A DNA stretch of 64,000 bases from Hyphomicrobiaceae bacterium (lineage in GTDB: Bacteria > Pseudomonadota > Alphaproteobacteria > Rhizobiales > Hyphomicrobiaceae), in the NCBI GenBank assembly GCA_025359185.1, contig JANYHF010000025.1, positions 62,001 through 126,000 on the forward strand. Direction: 5' to 3'. Position 1 is the stretch's first letter; every line of letters begins with the position of its first letter. A model generated the notes under the pieces. That model saw nothing but the letters and a program-made list of their open reading frames with translations. It was not told the DNA's origin and ran no database searches. The position numbers and the translations under genes are program-made. This document shows positions 27,039 to 33,281 of this stretch, piece after piece.

Positions 27039-27626
27039 ATGTACGCAGTCCGCCGTTTCGCTGTGCGCCACTCGCGGTTCGTTGAGCGCTTTTATCAGAG
27101 CTTCGAACGCGTGATCATATCGCTTGATCCTATCTTCCGGCGCATCGGCTATGGGCGGCTGGAAAAGCCGGTGGCGTTCACCGAGAAGGTGGTGAAGGGC
27201 TTCCTGTTCGACTGCAAAATGTGCGGGCAATGCGTGCTGTCCTCGACTGGCATGTCGTGCCCGATGAATTGCCCCAAGACCCTGCGCAATGGCCCCTGCG
27301 GCGGAGTGCGCGAGGGTGGGTTCTGCGAGGTGAAGCCGGAAATGCGTTGCGTCTGGGTCGATGCGTGGGATGGGGCGAGCCGCATGAACGAGGGGGCTGA
27401 GCGCATTAAGATCGTCCAGCCGCCGGTCGATAGGGCGCTGGAGGGCTCGTCGGCCTGGCTGCGGGTGGCACGCGAGAAGGCCGAAGCTCATTCATCCGTT
27501 CCTGCCAACACCGGCAAACAAACCATCGCCGACGCCTTCAAACGCGCCCGCGAGTTCGAGCCTGCCTCCGCGCCGCTGGCCAGCGAACCCAAGACCGCCA
27601 GCACGACGCCGGAACGTTTGAAATGA
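27039..27626 (+). CDS. Methylene-THF reductase C-terminal-type (MetV-like) cysteine-rich protein
   Basis: This 195-aa protein carries the MTHFR C-terminal/MetV domain. Eight cysteines lie at about 59, 62, 65, 74, 78, 87, 96 and 104, within DCKMCGQCVLSSTGMSCP and NCPKTLRNGPCGG. Such clusters can hold zinc or iron-sulfur centres. In acetogens MetV partners MetF as the electron-input subunit of methylene-THF reductase. Here a MetF-like gene follows 108 bp downstream, so a MetVF-type complex is likely. The C-terminal 60 residues are low complexity. It is divergent from sco1. Confidence 0.82.
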   Translation: MYAVRRFAVRHSRFVERFYQSFERVIISLDPIFRRIGYGRLEKPVAFTEKVVKGFLFDCKMCGQCVLSSTGMSCPMNCPKTLRNGPCGGVREGGFCEVKPEMRCVWVDAWDGASRMNEGAERIKIVQPPVDRALEGSSAWLRVAREKAEAHSSVPANTGKQTIADAFKRAREFEPASAPLASEPKTASTTPERLK

Positions 27627-27661
27627 CACTAAACGGATTTTCAAGTTGCTTTGGGATGACA

Positions 27662-27717
27662 CGCCCCACCCCATCCTGTCCTTCCCCCCTTGCAGGGGAG
27701 GGATAGGGTTGGGGGTG
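27662..27717. repeat. Dispersed C-rich palindrome, copy 1 (family A)
   Basis: The element reads CGCCCCACCCC on the left and GGGTTGGGGGTG on the right, with CTTCCCCCC and GGGGAGGGA inside, giving an imperfect hairpin. Related copies are at 35211-35260, 53574-53705 and 54255-54319. It sits between the MetV-like and MetF-like genes. Confidence 0.7.
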
Positions 27718-27734
27718 CCAGTTCGGTTAAGCCA

Positions 27735-28766
27735 ATGGACCACCCGATGACCCCCCTCCAAACGCCCGAACCGTATGACCCGGTCCTGCATCCGCCCTTG
27801 CAGCCGCTGCCCGGCCACAAATCCGGTTCCATCCTCGAGCGGGCGCTGCGGCGCGGCTGGTTCGCCATCACGGCTGAGCTCAACCCGCCCGACAGCGCCG
27901 ATCCGCGCGACGTGCTGAAGGCCGCCGAGCCGCTGAAGGCCGTCGCCGACGCCATCAATGCAACCGATGCCTCGGGCGCCAACTGCCATATGTCGTCAAT
28001 GGGCATCTGCTCCATCCTGTCGCGCGCCGGTATGGGCATTGTGTTGCAGATTTCCTGCCGCGACCGCAACCGCATCGCCATCCAGGGCGACGTGCTGGGC
28101 GCGGCGGCCATGGGCGTCGGCAACATCCTGTGCCTGACCGGCGATGGCGTCGGCGTGGGCGATCAGCCGGGTGCCAAGCCTGTGTTCGATTTCGATTGCA
28201 TGAGTTTGCTGCGTACCCTGAAGACCATGCGCGACGAGGGCCAGTTCCTGTCCGGCCGCAAACTCTCGACGCCGCCGGACATCTTCCTGGGTGCAGCCGA
28301 GAACCCATGCATTCCTCCGTATGAGTATCGTGCCGCCCGCCTGGAGAAGAAAGTGCGCGCGGGCGCCGATTTCATCCAGACCAATTACATTTTTGACGTC
28401 GAGCGCTTCCGCACGTTTATGAATCAGGTACGGGACATGGGCCTCGACAAAAAGGTGTTCATTCTGGCGGGTGTCGGCCCGCTGGCATCTGCGAAAACCG
28501 CCCGCTGGATGCGAGCCAACGTGCCGGGCATCCATATCCCCGACACTATCATCGACCGGCTGGAGCGCGCCGCCAAACCTGCCGAGGAAGGCAAGAAGCT
28601 CTGCATCGATATCATCGGCCAGGTGCGCGAGATCGAAGGCGTGGCGGGCGTGCACATCATGGCCTACCGCCGCGAGCATTTGGTGGGCGAAATCATCGAA
28701 GAGAGCGGCATCCTGAAGGAACGGCTGGCGGCCAAGGGAGCCCCTAACCCAACGCCGTCAGCCTGA
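27735..28766 (+). CDS. Methylenetetrahydrofolate reductase-like protein (MetF family, partner of MetV-like protein)
   Basis: This 343-aa TIM-barrel protein belongs to the MetF flavoprotein family but is distant from the classical enzyme at 31.3 kb. Visible family elements are WFAITAELNPPDSADP near residue 40, LQISCRDRNRIAIQGD, the NILCLTGDG strand, and ADFIQTNYIFDVERF. The C-terminal half is longer than in E. coli MetF. Its place after the MetV-like gene suggests the two act together on methyl-THF, possibly in the oxidative direction. The start could also be ATG 27747; the ribosome binding site is weak. Confidence 0.85.
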   Translation: MDHPMTPLQTPEPYDPVLHPPLQPLPGHKSGSILERALRRGWFAITAELNPPDSADPRDVLKAAEPLKAVADAINATDASGANCHMSSMGICSILSRAGMGIVLQISCRDRNRIAIQGDVLGAAAMGVGNILCLTGDGVGVGDQPGAKPVFDFDCMSLLRTLKTMRDEGQFLSGRKLSTPPDIFLGAAENPCIPPYEYRAARLEKKVRAGADFIQTNYIFDVERFRTFMNQVRDMGLDKKVFILAGVGPLASAKTARWMRANVPGIHIPDTIIDRLERAAKPAEEGKKLCIDIIGQVREIEGVAGVHIMAYRREHLVGEIIEESGILKERLAAKGAPNPTPSA

Positions 28767-28887
28767 GGAGCGAGCTTTGGCAAGCGTCTCGGATGAAGGC
28801 GCCGCCGCGGCGAGATACGTCGAAGATCTCGGCATGGGCTGATCAAGCGCTCGCGGTCGCGGTGCGAAGACAAGCACTAGATCGATC

Positions 28888-29587
28888 TCAGTCGATCACT
28901 GCCCAGCCGAACGCGAGCAGCGGCGCGGCCTTGTTGGCGAACTTGGCCAGCGTCTCAATCAGCGCCGCGCTTTTGATTTCGGCAGCGGAAAGGTCCTGTT
29001 TCACGTACCAGGATTTCAGCTTCAGCGTTCCGGCCAGTCCCGGCGGGGCGGTCTCGAACCCCTTTGGCAGCCGCGTGATCGCATCCGTGGTCTCAAGCAG
29101 CCAACCCCGCGCGCCTCAATGCCGCCTCGACCTTGGCCCAGGCATTGGGGTCCTCGACCACCGCGCGGCGCAGCTTCGCGAGCACGGGCGGTTCGGGCAT
29201 GTAGAAGCCTGCCACCACCATCGATCCCGCGGGGTCGATATGGACGTAGAGCGAGCCGGGCGCCATCTTCTCGCCATTGCGGCTGAGCACCGCCCCGGCA
29301 TGAGTCTTGTACGGAGATTTGTCCTTCGAAAACCGCACATCGCGATGAATGCGGAACATCGACTTCTTCGGATCGGCGCCCAGCGGCAGCTTGGCCTTGG
29401 CCAGGCGCGGAGCCAGCGTGGCCGCCAGCGAGATCAGCGGATCGCGGACGGCGGTTTCGTAGCGGGCCTTGTTGGCGTTGAACCACGCGCGCTCGTTGTT
29501 GGCTGAGAGCTCGCGCAAGAAGGCGAGCGCGTCCGGCGGGAAACCGATGAATGGCGGGGGCGGGAAGGGTTCGGCGAGGCTGGGCAT
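28888..29587 (-). pseudogene. DUF2461 family protein, frameshifted
   Basis: The first 164 codons (29587 to 29093) form a good DUF2461 N-terminal and central part (FPPDALAFLRELSANNERAW, SMFRIHRDVRFSKDKSPYKT, GSLYVHIDPAGSMVVAGFY) and then hit a stop. The missing C-terminus continues in a neighbouring frame down to the stop at 28888, reading LETTDAITRLPKGF, LKLKSWYVKQDLSAAEI, KAAPLLAFGWAVID. Removing one base from the run of four C at 29105-29108 restores one 232-codon frame. This is either a recent frameshift or a homopolymer sequencing error. The biochemical role of DUF2461 is unknown. Confidence 0.82.
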
Positions 29588-29655
29588 GGGGGCTCGCAGG
29601 GGAGTGCAATTTCAGAACGCGTCTGTTCTTGCCAGAAGCGCATGGGCGACGCCAG

Positions 29656-29726
29656 CCAATGGGGTCAGACCCCTTTTTTGGTAGCGGCGCGAACGGTGCT
29701 TGCATCATGGGGTCTGACCCCATTGG
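29656..29726. repeat. GGGGTCAGACCCC inverted repeat pair (family B)
   Basis: The 18-mer CCAATGGGGTCAGACCCC (29656-29673) has its exact reverse complement at 29709-29726, 35 bp apart. A single copy of the same 18-mer is at 31148-31165, and shorter copies flank the hslO start. The left copy is followed by T6, so it could act as a terminator-like hairpin between the DUF2461 remnant and the Rid gene. Confidence 0.8.
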
Positions 29727-29753
29727 TCTTGCTCCAGCGGTGCGCAATACCCG

Positions 29754-30242
29754 CTACTTCAGGAAGACGACCGCTTCCACCTCGAAGAGCATGGGGTCAA
29801 TTGCAAGCTCGGGAACGGGAACTAGAGTCTGCGCCGGCAGCGCCTTGCCGAACATGTCCGTGACGGCCTTGGTCAGCACTTCGAGCTTGGTCATATCGTG
29901 GTCGACCACGAAGACCGTGAGCTTGGCGACTTGATCGGGCCGGGCGCCGAGCGCATCGAGAGCCTTGCGCAAATTTGCGTAGGCCTGCTTCACTTGGACG
30001 GCGAAGTCGGGCGACAAGGCCCCGGCGCCATCTTGGCCGCCCTGCCCCGAGACATAGGCCACGCGCGCGTCGCGCGGCGCGATCACCGCTGTGCTGTAGC
30101 CATTTGTCGATGGGTCAAAGAGGCTTTGCGGATTGACGATGGTTAGCTTGTCCGCATTTTCGCCAGCTGCGGCTGCGGTCGGGAACGCGATGGACATGAC
30201 GATTAATCCTCCAATAACGACCAAAGTCTTCAAGTTTGGCAA
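29754..30242 (-). CDS. Exported Rid-family (YjgF-like) protein
   Basis: This 162-aa protein has a signal peptide (hydrophobic stretch VVIGGLIVMSIAFPTAAAAG, cleavage near residue 26) and then a Rid domain (VAYVSGQGGQDGAG, QAYANLRKALDALGA, FVVDHDMTKL). The catalytic Arg that RidA uses to bind carboxylates, found in the xVxxARLP strand, is replaced: VPVPELAIDP has Glu there. It should not act as a classical enamine/imine deaminase. A periplasmic Rid protein is unusual. It is divergent from the WYL regulator. Confidence 0.85.
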   Translation of the reverse strand: MPNLKTLVVIGGLIVMSIAFPTAAAAGENADKLTIVNPQSLFDPSTNGYSTAVIAPRDARVAYVSGQGGQDGAGALSPDFAVQVKQAYANLRKALDALGARPDQVAKLTVFVVDHDMTKLEVLTKAVTDMFGKALPAQTLVPVPELAIDPMLFEVEAVVFLK

Positions 30243-30380
30243 GCCAGTCTCCTTGCAGTGTCCGGCTACCGGCGAACCGCGACGGGTGCGACTTGTTCAC
30301 CGGTGTCGCGGTCAGTGCGAATTGAATACGGTGACCCTGCTGCCAGCATGCTGTCAGCAGTGATCGTATAGGGGGAGGGC

Positions 30381-31067
30381 ATGCGCCGCGCGGACCGCCT
30401 ATTTCAGATCATCCAGGTGCTGCGGCGCACGTCCAAGCCATTGACGGCCGACGCCATCGCCGCCGAGCTGGAGACCTCGAAGCGCACCGTCTACCGCGAC
30501 ATCGCCACGCTTATTGGGCAGCGCGTGCCCATTCGGGGTGAGGCCGGCATCGGCTATGTGCTGGACGGCGGCTTCGACATGCCGCCGCTGATGCTCACCG
30601 CCGACGAGGTCGAGGCGGCCGTGCTTGGCGCGCAGTGGGTCGCCAGCGCGGGCGATCCGGCGCTGGCTCGCGCCGCCCAGGATCTCATCGCCAAGATTGC
30701 CGCGACAGTTCCGGCGCGACTGCGCATCTTCGTCGCCGAATCCGCGGTCACCACGCCCCAGGCCTGCGGTCCTAAGGTGGACACCATCGACGTCGCGCGT
30801 CTTAGGGCCTGGTGCAAGGCCGGGCGCAAGCTCGTCCTTGGCTATCGCGACGAAAACGACCGGGTGACGGAGCGCACGGTCTGGCCGTTCCTGGTCGGCT
30901 ACCGCGAGGCCAGCCGGGTCTTCGTTGCCTGGTGCGAACTGCGCGAAGACTTCCGCACCTTCCGGGCCGATCGCGTGGTCACGGCGCAGTTTCTCGACGA
31001 GCGATATGCGGTCAGACCCAGCGCGCTGCGGGCCAATTGGCATGCGGCTAGCGAAGGCCGCGTATGA
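30381..31067 (+). CDS. YafY-type HTH/WYL-domain transcriptional regulator
   Basis: This 228-aa regulator has an N-terminal DeoR-like HTH (RRADRLFQIIQVLRR, then LETSKRTVYRDIATL) and a C-terminal WYL ligand-binding domain (about 140-215; KLVLGYRDENDRVTERTVWP and FVAWCELREDFRTFRADRV). It is divergent from the exported Rid gene with 138 bp between starts, so that gene is its likely target. WYL domains often sense nucleotides or small metabolites; the ligand here is unknown. Confidence 0.92.
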   Translation: MRRADRLFQIIQVLRRTSKPLTADAIAAELETSKRTVYRDIATLIGQRVPIRGEAGIGYVLDGGFDMPPLMLTADEVEAAVLGAQWVASAGDPALARAAQDLIAKIAATVPARLRIFVAESAVTTPQACGPKVDTIDVARLRAWCKAGRKLVLGYRDENDRVTERTVWPFLVGYREASRVFVAWCELREDFRTFRADRVVTAQFLDERYAVRPSALRANWHAASEGRV

Positions 31068-31147
31068 CCGGCGGCAGGGGCAGCACACCGTGGCTGCGGC
31101 GGCCGCCGTCACCGACCCCGCTCTCTCGGCAGCGGCAGGCGCGAGGG

Positions 31148-31165
31148 CCAATGGGGTCAGACCCC
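31148..31165 (+). repeat. Family B repeat, single copy (CCAATGGGGTCAGACCCC)
   Basis: This is identical over 18 bp to the repeat at 29656-29673 and is followed by a related TTTGG...AGCGGC sequence. It sits in the 251-bp gap between the convergent yafY-like and metF genes, where I see no gene. Confidence 0.8.
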
Positions 31166-31318
31166 TTTGGCGCAGCGGCACCACCATCGAGCGCGATACG
31201 ACAGCGACCATCGCCGATGGCACCGGCGTCCGTATTCCCGTCCCCGAAACTGTCGACGATCTGCACGGGATTGTCGACGATGTGGAGGGGAGGGGCATGC
31301 CAAGGCATATGTGCCGTG

Positions 31319-32194
31319 TCAGGCCGCGCTCGCCCCCCTTGCCGCTCTGCCTAGCCCCAGCGCCTGGCAGGCCGCTTCCGGCATCTCGGCGTCGTTCAGC
31401 GTGAACAGGTGGATATGCGGCGCCCCACCGGCGATCAGGCCTTCGATCTGGCGGTTGAACACGTCCTGGCCAATCTTGCGGTTTTCCTCCTGGCTGGTTA
31501 CGCCCGCGAACCGCTCATGCAGCCATTGCGGCACGTTTGCGCCACAGCGGGCCGCAAAGCCCTTCATCTTCTCGAAGTCCATCACTGGCAGCACGCCGGG
31601 CACGACCGGGATCACAACGCCTTCGGCTGCCGCCTCGTCCAAAAACCGGAAATACACGTCGTTATCGAAGAAAAACTGCGTGATGGCGCGTTTTGCCCCC
31701 GCGTCCTCCTTGCGGGCCAGCATTTCGATGCCGCCTTCGGCTGATGGCGTATCGGGATGCGGCTCCGGGTAGGCCGACACCGAAATGTCAAAGCCCCAGA
31801 CCCGGTTGAGGCTGGCGACGAACGCGGGTGTCGAATGGTAAAACCCCGCGCCGCCATGCCGGTCGCCGGGTTTTCCCGGTGGCGGATCGCCGCGCAGCGC
31901 CACCACATGGGTGATGCCATTGGACCGGAGTTGCCCGGCGTAGGTCGCGACCTGGAAAATCGGCGTTGAGACATAAGTCAAATGCGACGCCGTTGGCACG
32001 CCGGTCGCGCCCTGGATGGCGAGGACCGCATTCAGAGTCGGATCTGACGTGGTCCCGCCAGCCCCATAGGTCACGGTCATGAAGGCTGGGCCGAGCTTGG
32101 CCAGCCGCGCCGCCGTGCGATCCAGCGCCTCGCGGGCCTTGTCCGACCGGGGCGGGAAAAATTCAAAACTGACAGAAATGTCGCGTCTGGACAT
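31319..32194 (-). CDS. metF: 5,10-methylenetetrahydrofolate reductase
   Basis: This 291-aa classical MetF reduces methylene-THF to methyl-THF with NADH via FAD. Motifs are VSFEFFPPRSDKA with the catalytic Glu, FMTVTYGAGGTTSD, THVVALRGDPP and the GVLPVMDF strand. ATG 32194 has GAGG upstream; an in-frame extension of 12 codons was rejected. It is a second, clearly different MetF paralogue in this cluster and is likely the biosynthetic enzyme feeding methionine synthesis. It is divergent from the methyltransferase gene. Confidence 0.94.
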   Translation of the reverse strand: MSRRDISVSFEFFPPRSDKAREALDRTAARLAKLGPAFMTVTYGAGGTTSDPTLNAVLAIQGATGVPTASHLTYVSTPIFQVATYAGQLRSNGITHVVALRGDPPPGKPGDRHGGAGFYHSTPAFVASLNRVWGFDISVSAYPEPHPDTPSAEGGIEMLARKEDAGAKRAITQFFFDNDVYFRFLDEAAAEGVVIPVVPGVLPVMDFEKMKGFAARCGANVPQWLHERFAGVTSQEENRKIGQDVFNRQIEGLIAGGAPHIHLFTLNDAEMPEAACQALGLGRAARGASAA

Positions 32195-32309
32195 GTCGCC
32201 TCGCTGCGGGATGACCAAAAGACAATACATTCACTTCGCCTGATTTCTCGTTATACATCCGCACGCACACCGGCAACACATTAGGCAATGCCAGCCACAG
32301 GACACGCTC

Positions 32310-33281
32310 ATGACCAGAACCATTCTGCAATCTGCCACCAGGACCGTGATCATGGGCTTCGACCAGCCCTTCTGCGTCATCGGCGAGCGCATCAACCCGA
32401 CCGGCCGCAAGAAACTGGCCGCCGAGATGGTGGCCGGCAACTTCGATACGGTGCGCAAGGACGCGCTGGAGCAGGTGGCGGCGGGCGCACTGGTGCTCGA
32501 CGTCAATGCGGGCGTCACCACCGTCAACCCGAACGAGACCGAGCCCGCTTTGCTAGCCGCTACCATCCAACTTGTGCAGTCGATCGTGGATTGCCCGATC
32601 TGCATCGATTCATCGGTCCCCGATGCGCTAAAAGCTGGCCTCGCGGTTGTCAAAGGCCGGCCGATGGTCAACTCCATCACCGGCGAGGAGGACCGGCTCG
32701 AGATCATCATGCCGCTGCTGAAGAAGTACAACGTGCCGGTAATCGCTATCTCCAACGATGAGAACGGCATCTCCGAGAACCCGGACGTGCGCTTCGAGGT
32801 GGCCAAGAAGATCGTGCATCGCGCCTTGGATTTTGGCCTGAAGGCCGAGGACATCGTCGTCGATCCGCTGGTAATGCCGATCGGCGCCATGGGTACGGCC
32901 GGCTTGCAGGTCTGGCACCTCGTCCGCCGCCTGCGCGAGGAACTGAAGGTCAACACCTGCTGCGGCGCGTCCAACATCAGCTTCGGCCTGCCGCACCGGC
33001 ACGGCATCAACGCTGCCTTCCTGCCCATGGCCATCGCCAGCGGCATGACCAGCGCCATCATGAACCCCTGCCGCCCGCAAGAGATGGACGCCATCCGCGC
33101 CGCCAACGTTCTCATGGGTACGGACGCCCACTGCACCACATGGATCATGCACAACCGCGACCGGCCAGAGCCAGTGGCGGGCGCCGTATCGGCACCGGTA
33201 GGCGAGGCGGGCGCCGGGCCAGACGCGGGTGGCAGTGGCGGCAAGCGGCGCGGGGGGAGAGAGGCGAGACGAGGGGGGTGA
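32310..33281 (+). CDS. Methyltetrahydrofolate:corrinoid methyltransferase-like protein (AcsE/pterin-binding family)
   Basis: This 323-aa pterin-binding TIM barrel resembles AcsE, CmuB and the methyl-THF domain of MetH. Features are VIGERINPTGRKKLA near residue 24, LVLDVNAGVTTVN, the CIDSSVPDAL strand, NSITGEEDR, and NTCCGASNISFGLPHR, a phosphate/pterin-loop-like block. It moves methyl groups between a corrinoid protein and THF. The last 35 residues are a Gly/Arg-rich tail. No corrinoid protein or reactivase lies beside it; with the MetV/MetF pair it completes a methyl branch. Confidence 0.85.
   Translation: MTRTILQSATRTVIMGFDQPFCVIGERINPTGRKKLAAEMVAGNFDTVRKDALEQVAAGALVLDVNAGVTTVNPNETEPALLAATIQLVQSIVDCPICIDSSVPDALKAGLAVVKGRPMVNSITGEEDRLEIIMPLLKKYNVPVIAISNDENGISENPDVRFEVAKKIVHRALDFGLKAEDIVVDPLVMPIGAMGTAGLQVWHLVRRLREELKVNTCCGASNISFGLPHRHGINAAFLPMAIASGMTSAIMNPCRPQEMDAIRAANVLMGTDAHCTTWIMHNRDRPEPVAGAVSAPVGEAGAGPDAGGSGGKRRGGREARRGG

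Follow-up and report, generated by a model that had tools for sequence, protein, structure and literature searches.

Four methyl-transfer genes in the window

The DNA analysed here, hereafter the window, is a stretch of 64,000 nucleotides from a draft genome of a Hyphomicrobiaceae bacterium (assembly GCA_025359185.1, contig JANYHF010000025.1, positions 62,001 to 126,000). Within 6.3 kb of it lie four genes whose products are predicted to act on methyl groups carried by tetrahydrofolate (THF), namely a metV-like gene, metF2, a classical metF on the opposite strand and mtgD (Table 1). The presence of these genes, their conserved order, their co-occurrence with partner genes and the tree grouping of their products lead us to consider it highly probable that they make up the THF side of a cobalamin methyl-transfer system of the MtgBCDE type, which has its cluster scattered in this genome and serves both demethylation and methionine synthesis.

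Table 1. Genes of the window, and two partner genes located elsewhere in the same genome (given by stretch and contig). MTHFR, methylenetetrahydrofolate reductase; aa, amino acids; Cys, cysteine
Gene	Position	Strand	Family and assignment
metV-like	27039-27626	+	PF12225/DUF5981; short MetV of 195 aa with eight conserved Cys; putative iron-sulfur subunit of a methyl-THF/methylene-THF oxidoreductase of the MetVF type
metF2	27735-28766	+	PF02219; MTHFR-family protein, putative partner of MetV; 343 aa from the probable ATG at 27735
classical metF	31319-32230	-	PF02219 (E 2.8e-66, 224 bits); TIGR00676; NAD(P)H-type MTHFR
mtgD	32310-33281	+	Pterin_bind; NF005719; putative methyl-THF:corrinoid methyltransferase, catabolic and methionine-synthase module
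mtgC	L006:13458-14195 (C26)		PF02607 and PF02310 over cut-off; stand-alone corrinoid protein, cap and B12 domains
mtgE-like	L006:4578-5579 (C26)		PRK07534, 501.5 bits against a cut-off of 338; stand-alone, homocysteine methyltransferase type
DUF2461 gene	29093-29587	-	Pfam; absent from the gene list of the sequence-only reading
Rid-like gene	29754-30242	-	PF01042
HTH/WYL regulator	30381-31067	+	Pfam

An earlier, sequence-only reading of the window had described an eight-cysteine MetV-like protein followed directly by a MetF-like protein, with a separate classical metF nearby, and Pfam profile searches agree. The MetV-like protein matches PF12225 (E 7.5e-26, 90 bits against a cut-off of 23), and its eight cysteines follow one conserved pattern that is found in 103 of 104 MetV rows; all eight are kept in each of the 18 rows of the MetV alignment (A2). 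The exception to the pattern, the long form L116 (228 aa), retains all eight cysteines with one spacing longer by a residue. Eight conserved cysteines are enough for two 4Fe-4S clusters, and two such clusters are predicted in the window protein. The window MetV lacks the N-terminal stretch of L116, about 110 residues, which is missing from all 18 other rows aligned with L116. Acetogen MetV is a long form that carries this N-terminal stretch. The AlphaFold2 model of the window MetV (predicted local distance difference test score, pLDDT, 86) is Cys-rich in its middle part and helical at its N-terminus, where the hydrophobic moment of residues 12-28 is 0.72. Sequence and fold searches of the PDB gave no credible solved counterpart (best Foldseek E 7.9), and the sequence match of the MetV profile nearest to significance was the zinc-finger protein 2ctd (E 0.016). 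An alphaproteobacterium without an MttB match (G107; L116:6187-7856 and L117) has a long MetV with its own MetF, and a second set of distant MtgD-, RACo- and MtgC-like proteins with a short MetV-MetF2 pair.

The metF2 gene (PF02219, E 1.7e-36) lies on the same strand as metV, and its frame is open from a TTG at 27690 (27690-28766), so that the gap between the two genes is 63 bases by the leftmost start and 108 by the ATG. Among 100 metV/metF2 pairs called by script, 54 overlap by exactly 4 bases, 37 overlap by more (the leftmost starts were taken in the calling) and nine, including the window pair, stand apart. A repeat as the origin of this spacer found no support: neither the window nor 11 stretches of the same genome contain another copy of it. 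The MetF2 model is an MTHFR barrel (pLDDT 87.9) with human MTHFR (6fcx, E 2e-15) as best structure match. Alignment read by eye indicates that MetF2 keeps the Glu and Asp of classical MetF; the classical Gln is Asn in the window MetF2 and in L210 (a same-order copy, below) and Gln in L077 and L116. The classical MetF scores 258 bits against TIGR00676, slightly below the cut-off of 293.7.

The fourth protein matches Pterin_bind (PF00809, E 4.9e-29) and the stand-alone MtgD type of NCBIfam (NF005719, 386.8 bits against a cut-off of 259). Its nearest solved structures are 4o0q (the top match, filed as a dihydropteroate synthase), 2yck, 2yci and 1q7m. Its closest relatives of solved structure are methyltransferases acting between corrinoid and THF, among them the THF portion of a methionine synthase from a bacterium. 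The sequence-only reading had called it AcsE-like, which holds only at the level of the superfamily; AcsE proper can be set aside, with 135 bits in the model specific to carbon monoxide dehydrogenase/acetyl-CoA synthase systems (NF040758, cut-off 370). Dihydropteroate synthase (TIGR01496, 29.2 bits against 162.6) and a full MetH (138 against a cut-off of 1011) were likewise rejected; another contig, C107, has its own Pterin_bind frame, which scores 277 bits. On these scores the predicted protein is the MtgD module of the MtgBCDE system of Phaeobacter and Ruegeria, not the acetogen AcsE.

The same order in a related genome

Eight of 60 relatives, our genome included, have a MetV match, one of them weak. 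The closest is L210, in an 84% complete genome of the same order (G234), where mttB adjoins a cluster reading mtgC-DUF1638-metV-metF2-metF(-)-mtgD-RACo. The four window genes have the same order and strands there, down to the antisense metF, and identities to the copies of our genome are 75.1% for MetV, 77.6% for MetF2, 75.9% for MtgD, 78.6% for MtgC and 69.3% for RACo, with 51.9% over 291 residues for the classical MetF. Because this order recurs in a same-order genome, the grouping that had been picked out in the window is not due to chance. Since L210 still has the cluster, the window looks like one that was broken up; the genes were probably once together and are now scattered.

A tree was built from 80 of 132 MTHFR-like rows (every third MetF2 row from the named genomes introduced below, and all other rows), and long branches were flagged by the tool. 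MetF2 (56 rows), a distant type that we call MetF2R (15 rows) and classical MetF (nine rows) each form one group, with support of 100/100, 100/100 and 96/86, so that the two MetF proteins of the window fall into separate groups; the labels were taken from profile scores, and the tree therefore tests consistency and not function. The window MetF2 groups with L121, which lies on a short contig; L120 and the copy in the L210 cluster join at the next node outwards. The classical MetF forms a pair with the antisense metF of L210 (support 100/99).

The DUF2461, Rid-like and HTH/WYL genes all stand between metF2 and metF. Using tblastn, no counterparts of the three were found in L210, and across 132 related loci there was one WYL match (L143) and nothing for DUF2461 or Rid. 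A role for them in the system was rejected on this evidence; they are unrelated insertions into the cluster, and the sequence-only reading was right to see no link for Rid and WYL. A short palindromic repeat around GGGGTCAGACCCC occurs in direct and inverted copies (29655-29676, 29709-29726 and 31147-31168), which sit in spacers adjoining the Rid and WYL genes.

Partner genes elsewhere in the genome

The genome is a draft of 4.04 Mb in 125 contigs with a completeness of 97.06%. Its core genes are spread over four contigs (C119, which holds the window mtgD, C26, C9 and C115), and the mttB genes lie on six more. The corrinoid protein, the reactivase and the substrate methyltransferases, which had been noted as missing beside the set, were all found outside the window: with MtgC, RACo and six MttB proteins present, the genome does contain the parts of a corrinoid methyltransferase system. 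The mtgC and mtgE-like genes are about 8 kb apart on C26, which has the sole B12-binding_2 frame of the genome, and MtgC scores 427 bits against a profile built on 23 MtgC frames that were taken from related loci. Such related-locus profiles were built without the MtgC, RACo, VirF, DUF1638 and MttB proteins of our genome; they include the window MetV, MetF2, MetF and MtgD, whose own scores to them are circular. One RACo/RamA reactivase is encoded on C9 and one DUF1638 protein on C115. Near RACo on C9 lies a small PF13769 (VirF-type) protein (L016:7296-7748), for which the family name 'virulence factor' looks misleading.

The six MttB (PF06253) frames, on C87, C72, C93, C113, C88 and C66, have no internal stops and thus no pyrrolysine-type TAG. 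Two of them neighbour N-methyl-amine oxidation genes: on C93 a soxA-type gene (profile-scanned) and a presumed soxG (by eye) precede mttB, and on C113 a DMGDH-type FAD/GcvT gene follows it. On C88 (L021:7740-10341) mttB adjoins a flavoprotein of the pyridine-nucleotide-disulphide-oxidoreductase type that by eye resembles ferredoxin-NADP reductase.

No MetE was found in the genome, and no one-piece MetH: the B12 domain (C26), the two S-methyl_trans frames (the MtgE-like one on C26, and C71) and the two Pterin_bind frames (C107 and the window mtgD) are separate, PF02965 not having been searched. Of the proteins found here, MtgD alone is a candidate for binding methyl-THF in methionine synthesis, and the set is therefore probably dual-purpose.

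Distribution among Alphaproteobacteria and related loci

We surveyed 192 genomes of Alphaproteobacteria, our own included, at a requested completeness of at least 90%, counting MtgD at E 1e-70 or better. DUF5981/MetV is present in 18 genomes, MtgD in 40, MttB in 43 and RACo in 47. All 40 MtgD genomes have both MttB and RACo, and 15 of the 18 MetV genomes have MtgD (Fisher P 2.8e-9, a test that ignores relatedness). The stretches around 40 MtgD loci from 39 other genomes were then read. The metV-metF2 pair stands beside mtgD in 13, with RACo next in 12 of them. Fifteen other stretches carry MetF2R in its place. This MTHFR-like protein is a distant one (the copy scanned, L103:8903-9829, scores 34.6 bits with PF02219); it adjoins mtgD in nine loci, immediately follows RACo in five and in one stands at a greater distance, on the far side of a metF. 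MetF2R may be the metF2 type of roseobacters. The two types never share a stretch (0/40; hypergeometric P 0.0004, again ignoring relatedness). A classical-type metF is near mtgD in six loci, four of them with MetF2R, and in ten loci no MTHFR type among those sought turned up, contig ends cutting some of these stretches short. At least two enzyme types thus appear to serve methyl-THF oxidation in mtgD clusters, one of them the acetogen-like MetV-MetF2 pair.

A second sample comprised MetV loci from named genomes, taken as the best 80 of at least 570 confirmed matches and hence those closest to the window MetV. The stretch contains metF2 in 78 of the 80, which supports the view that MetV and MetF2 belong together, and mtgD in 38. 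These 38 are accompanied by VirF (PF13769) in all cases, by DUF1638 in 36, by RACo in 34 and by MtgC in 33; among the 42 loci without mtgD, three are clusters that run off the end of their contig. Annotated records give the same picture: Sinorhizobium meliloti pSymB reads mttB, then mtgC-DUF1638 ... virulence factor-metV-metF2-mtgD-(hypothetical)-ASKHA, and Paracoccus aminovorans mttB, then mtgC-DUF1638-metV-metF2-mtgD-ASKHA.

Two loci are unusual in their labels. L129 (Oceanobacillus HTM 045) and L177 (Candidatus Planktophila) carry proteobacterial-looking metV-metF2 pairs in records labelled Bacillota and Actinomycetota; these contigs are likely mislabelled or contaminating. In Halomonas (L193:5290-8893 and L159:8619-12357), MetV lies between a DmdA-like gene and purU-folD with no metF2 directly after it. 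L193 has no metF2 within its 17-kb stretch, and L159 has a second metV-metF2 pair a few kb off, so that MetV may also have a partner other than MetF2.

Proposed function and alternatives

In the proposed scheme, MttB-family (MtgB-like) enzymes would each move a methyl group from some N-methylated substrate onto the single corrinoid protein MtgC, RACo and the DUF1638 protein would keep the cobalt active, and MtgD would hand the methyl group from MtgC to THF. MetV-MetF2, as a flavin and iron-sulfur enzyme, would oxidise methyl-THF to methylene-THF, which would then enter THF-linked one-carbon (C1) oxidation. For methionine, the classical MetF would make methyl-THF, and MtgD, MtgC and MtgE would carry the methyl group the reverse way to homocysteine. 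The direction of flux, the substrates, the MetV clusters and the division of labour between the two MetF proteins are what we infer here. The sequence-only reading had assigned the set to oxidation of a methyl group taken from a methylated compound; the corrinoid, RACo and MttB parts which this needs are present, the methionine role had been left out, and oxidation in vivo is presumed.

The set could instead make methionine only, with MtgD, MtgC and MtgE replacing MetH, both MetF and MetV-MetF2 forming methyl-THF, and the MttB proteins unrelated to it. The lack of MetE and of one-piece MetH in the draft fits this, as does the three-part methionine synthase of Phaeobacter inhibens, which with a RamA-like and a DUF1638 protein is reported to be supported by mutant fitness (PMC5764234). 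We nevertheless regard it as very improbable: MttB accompanies MtgD throughout the survey, mttB adjoins mtgC in L210, S. meliloti and P. aminovorans, and mtgC and mtgD mutants of Ruegeria pomeroyi, reported as methionine auxotrophs, could not use glycine betaine for growth even when methionine was supplied (PMC12478193). By analogy with this genetics in relatives, MtgC and MtgD would have a dual role in methionine synthesis and betaine demethylation. A different doubt concerns MetV itself, which might be a zinc or structural subunit that merely boosts a MetF2 using NAD(P)H like the classical enzyme. MetV is predicted to hold zinc in addition to iron-sulfur clusters and is reported to stimulate MetF strongly (PMC8760232), and the zinc-finger match and the lack of a credible fold match noted above point the same way. 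MetVF of Clostridium ljungdahlii was, however, reported to contain iron and sulfide in amounts that match about two 4Fe-4S clusters per MetV, and to take electrons from reduced ferredoxin with no use of NAD(P)H (PMC8760232), and the near-invariant eight cysteines would suffice for as many clusters; we therefore think a purely zinc or structural MetV unlikely.

More serious is the view that MetV-MetF2 is a general methyl-THF oxidase for any THF-linked demethylation, whether by DmdA-type, CmuA-type or sarcosine and dimethylglycine enzymes, and that its closeness to mtgD is a relic. In 39 of the 80 named-genome loci, metV (usually accompanied by metF2) stands in a stretch that lacks mtg genes; 25 of these stretches extend at least 5 kb to either side, and the other 14 fall short of 5 kb on one side. 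MetV is therefore not tied to the MtgBCDE system. Among these 39, clustering found folD-type genes in five loci and purU-type genes in four; DmdA-like proteins of 370-380 bits, below the cut-off of 410, occur in four of the five loci tested; and Notoacmeibacter has a CmuA-type protein in one locus. Besides the Halomonas loci with a DmdA-like gene, purU and folD, an annotated record beyond the 80, a Paracoccaceae plasmid, reads glyA ... folD-metV-metF2, which places metV with folD and serine-cycle genes. The window MetF2, moreover, shares its clade with many copies from loci without mtg genes, but the same-order copy L210 of that clade is still inside an mtg cluster, and the chemistry would be that of the MtgBCDE scheme, with only its exclusiveness differing. 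We hold this view to be possible, if on balance improbable. Several further observations weigh, like those 39 loci, against the MtgBCDE assignment. MtgC falls under both NCBIfam MtgC cut-offs (208 against 370, and 180.6 against 310), and the sixth MttB (C66) is distant, at 361 bits against 641-713 for the other five. In the survey, MtgD is absent from three MttB genomes, from seven RACo genomes and from three of the 18 MetV genomes (G045, G053 and G107); 27 of the 40 MtgD loci have no MetV beside them, and MetV lies away from mtgD in G131, where MetF2R is beside mtgD, and in G164, where no MTHFR type was found there. A draft in 125 contigs that is 97% complete makes 'no MetE' and 'no MetH' less than final, and the assignment of MtgE is weakened by a report that Bmt of P. 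inhibens acts alone in vitro as a betaine/DMSP (dimethylsulfoniopropionate):homocysteine methyltransferase (PMC12366255).

Returning to the THF side of an MtgBCDE-type system as the preferred reading, we offer one more specific idea, which should be taken as tentative and rather doubtful. In aerobic Pseudomonadota, the short MetV might make a MetF-type enzyme work as an oxygen-tolerant iron-sulfur oxidase of methyl-THF. Its electrons would leave by way of MetV, not for NAD+ but for a respiratory carrier or even the ferredoxin domain of RACo, so that the burning of a methyl group would re-arm the cobalt from which it came; other lineages would use an unrelated-looking MTHFR-like enzyme in the same cluster instead. 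In the common cluster order, RACo is the second gene after metF2. The electron acceptor of MetV-MetF2 decides the energy gained per methyl group.

Comparison with known systems

With acetogen MetVF (type II, C. ljungdahlii) the window pair shares a metV directly before an MTHFR-family metF and a DUF5981 protein with eight cysteines, and the annotations of S. meliloti and P. aminovorans show no RnfC2 or Hdr gene close to metV (our own genome was not searched for them). The pair differs in that the window MetV has a helical N-terminus in place of the N-terminal stretch, the hosts include aerobes, and the expected direction is oxidation. The MetF2 of Methylobacterium extorquens CM4 is likewise a second MetF distant from the canonical one and placed with THF-linked C1 genes; it is reported to be essential on chloromethane, and no MetV is named in the passages of that paper which describe it (PMC3621897).

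The closest comparison is with MtgBCDE, which is reported as a major ocean route of betaine demethylation (PMC12478193). In R. pomeroyi the metF paralogue metF2 lies downstream of mtgD and its product topped the differentially synthesised proteins on each of the three N-osmolytes, and up to seven MttB-type genes occur in bacteria with mtgC and mtgD (PMC12478193). The methyl-THF oxidation step is assigned there to MetF2 with no MetV, and the main text of that paper has no match for 'MetV' or 'DUF5981'; nor did a literature search of open-licence PMC papers find a description of MetV in aerobes or in an MtgBCDE system. The present system is of a known kind; its genes are scattered, and it includes a MetV subunit that is not discussed in the literature found. 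Here the core genes and the mttB genes lie on separate contigs, metF2 comes with MetV, and a classical metF stands antisense beside mtgD. The parts list of the genome is the same as that of the known MtgBCDE system, with separate MtgC, MtgD, MtgE, RamA-like and DUF1638 proteins, several MttB proteins, no one-piece MetH or MetE found, and a MetF paralogue beside mtgD.

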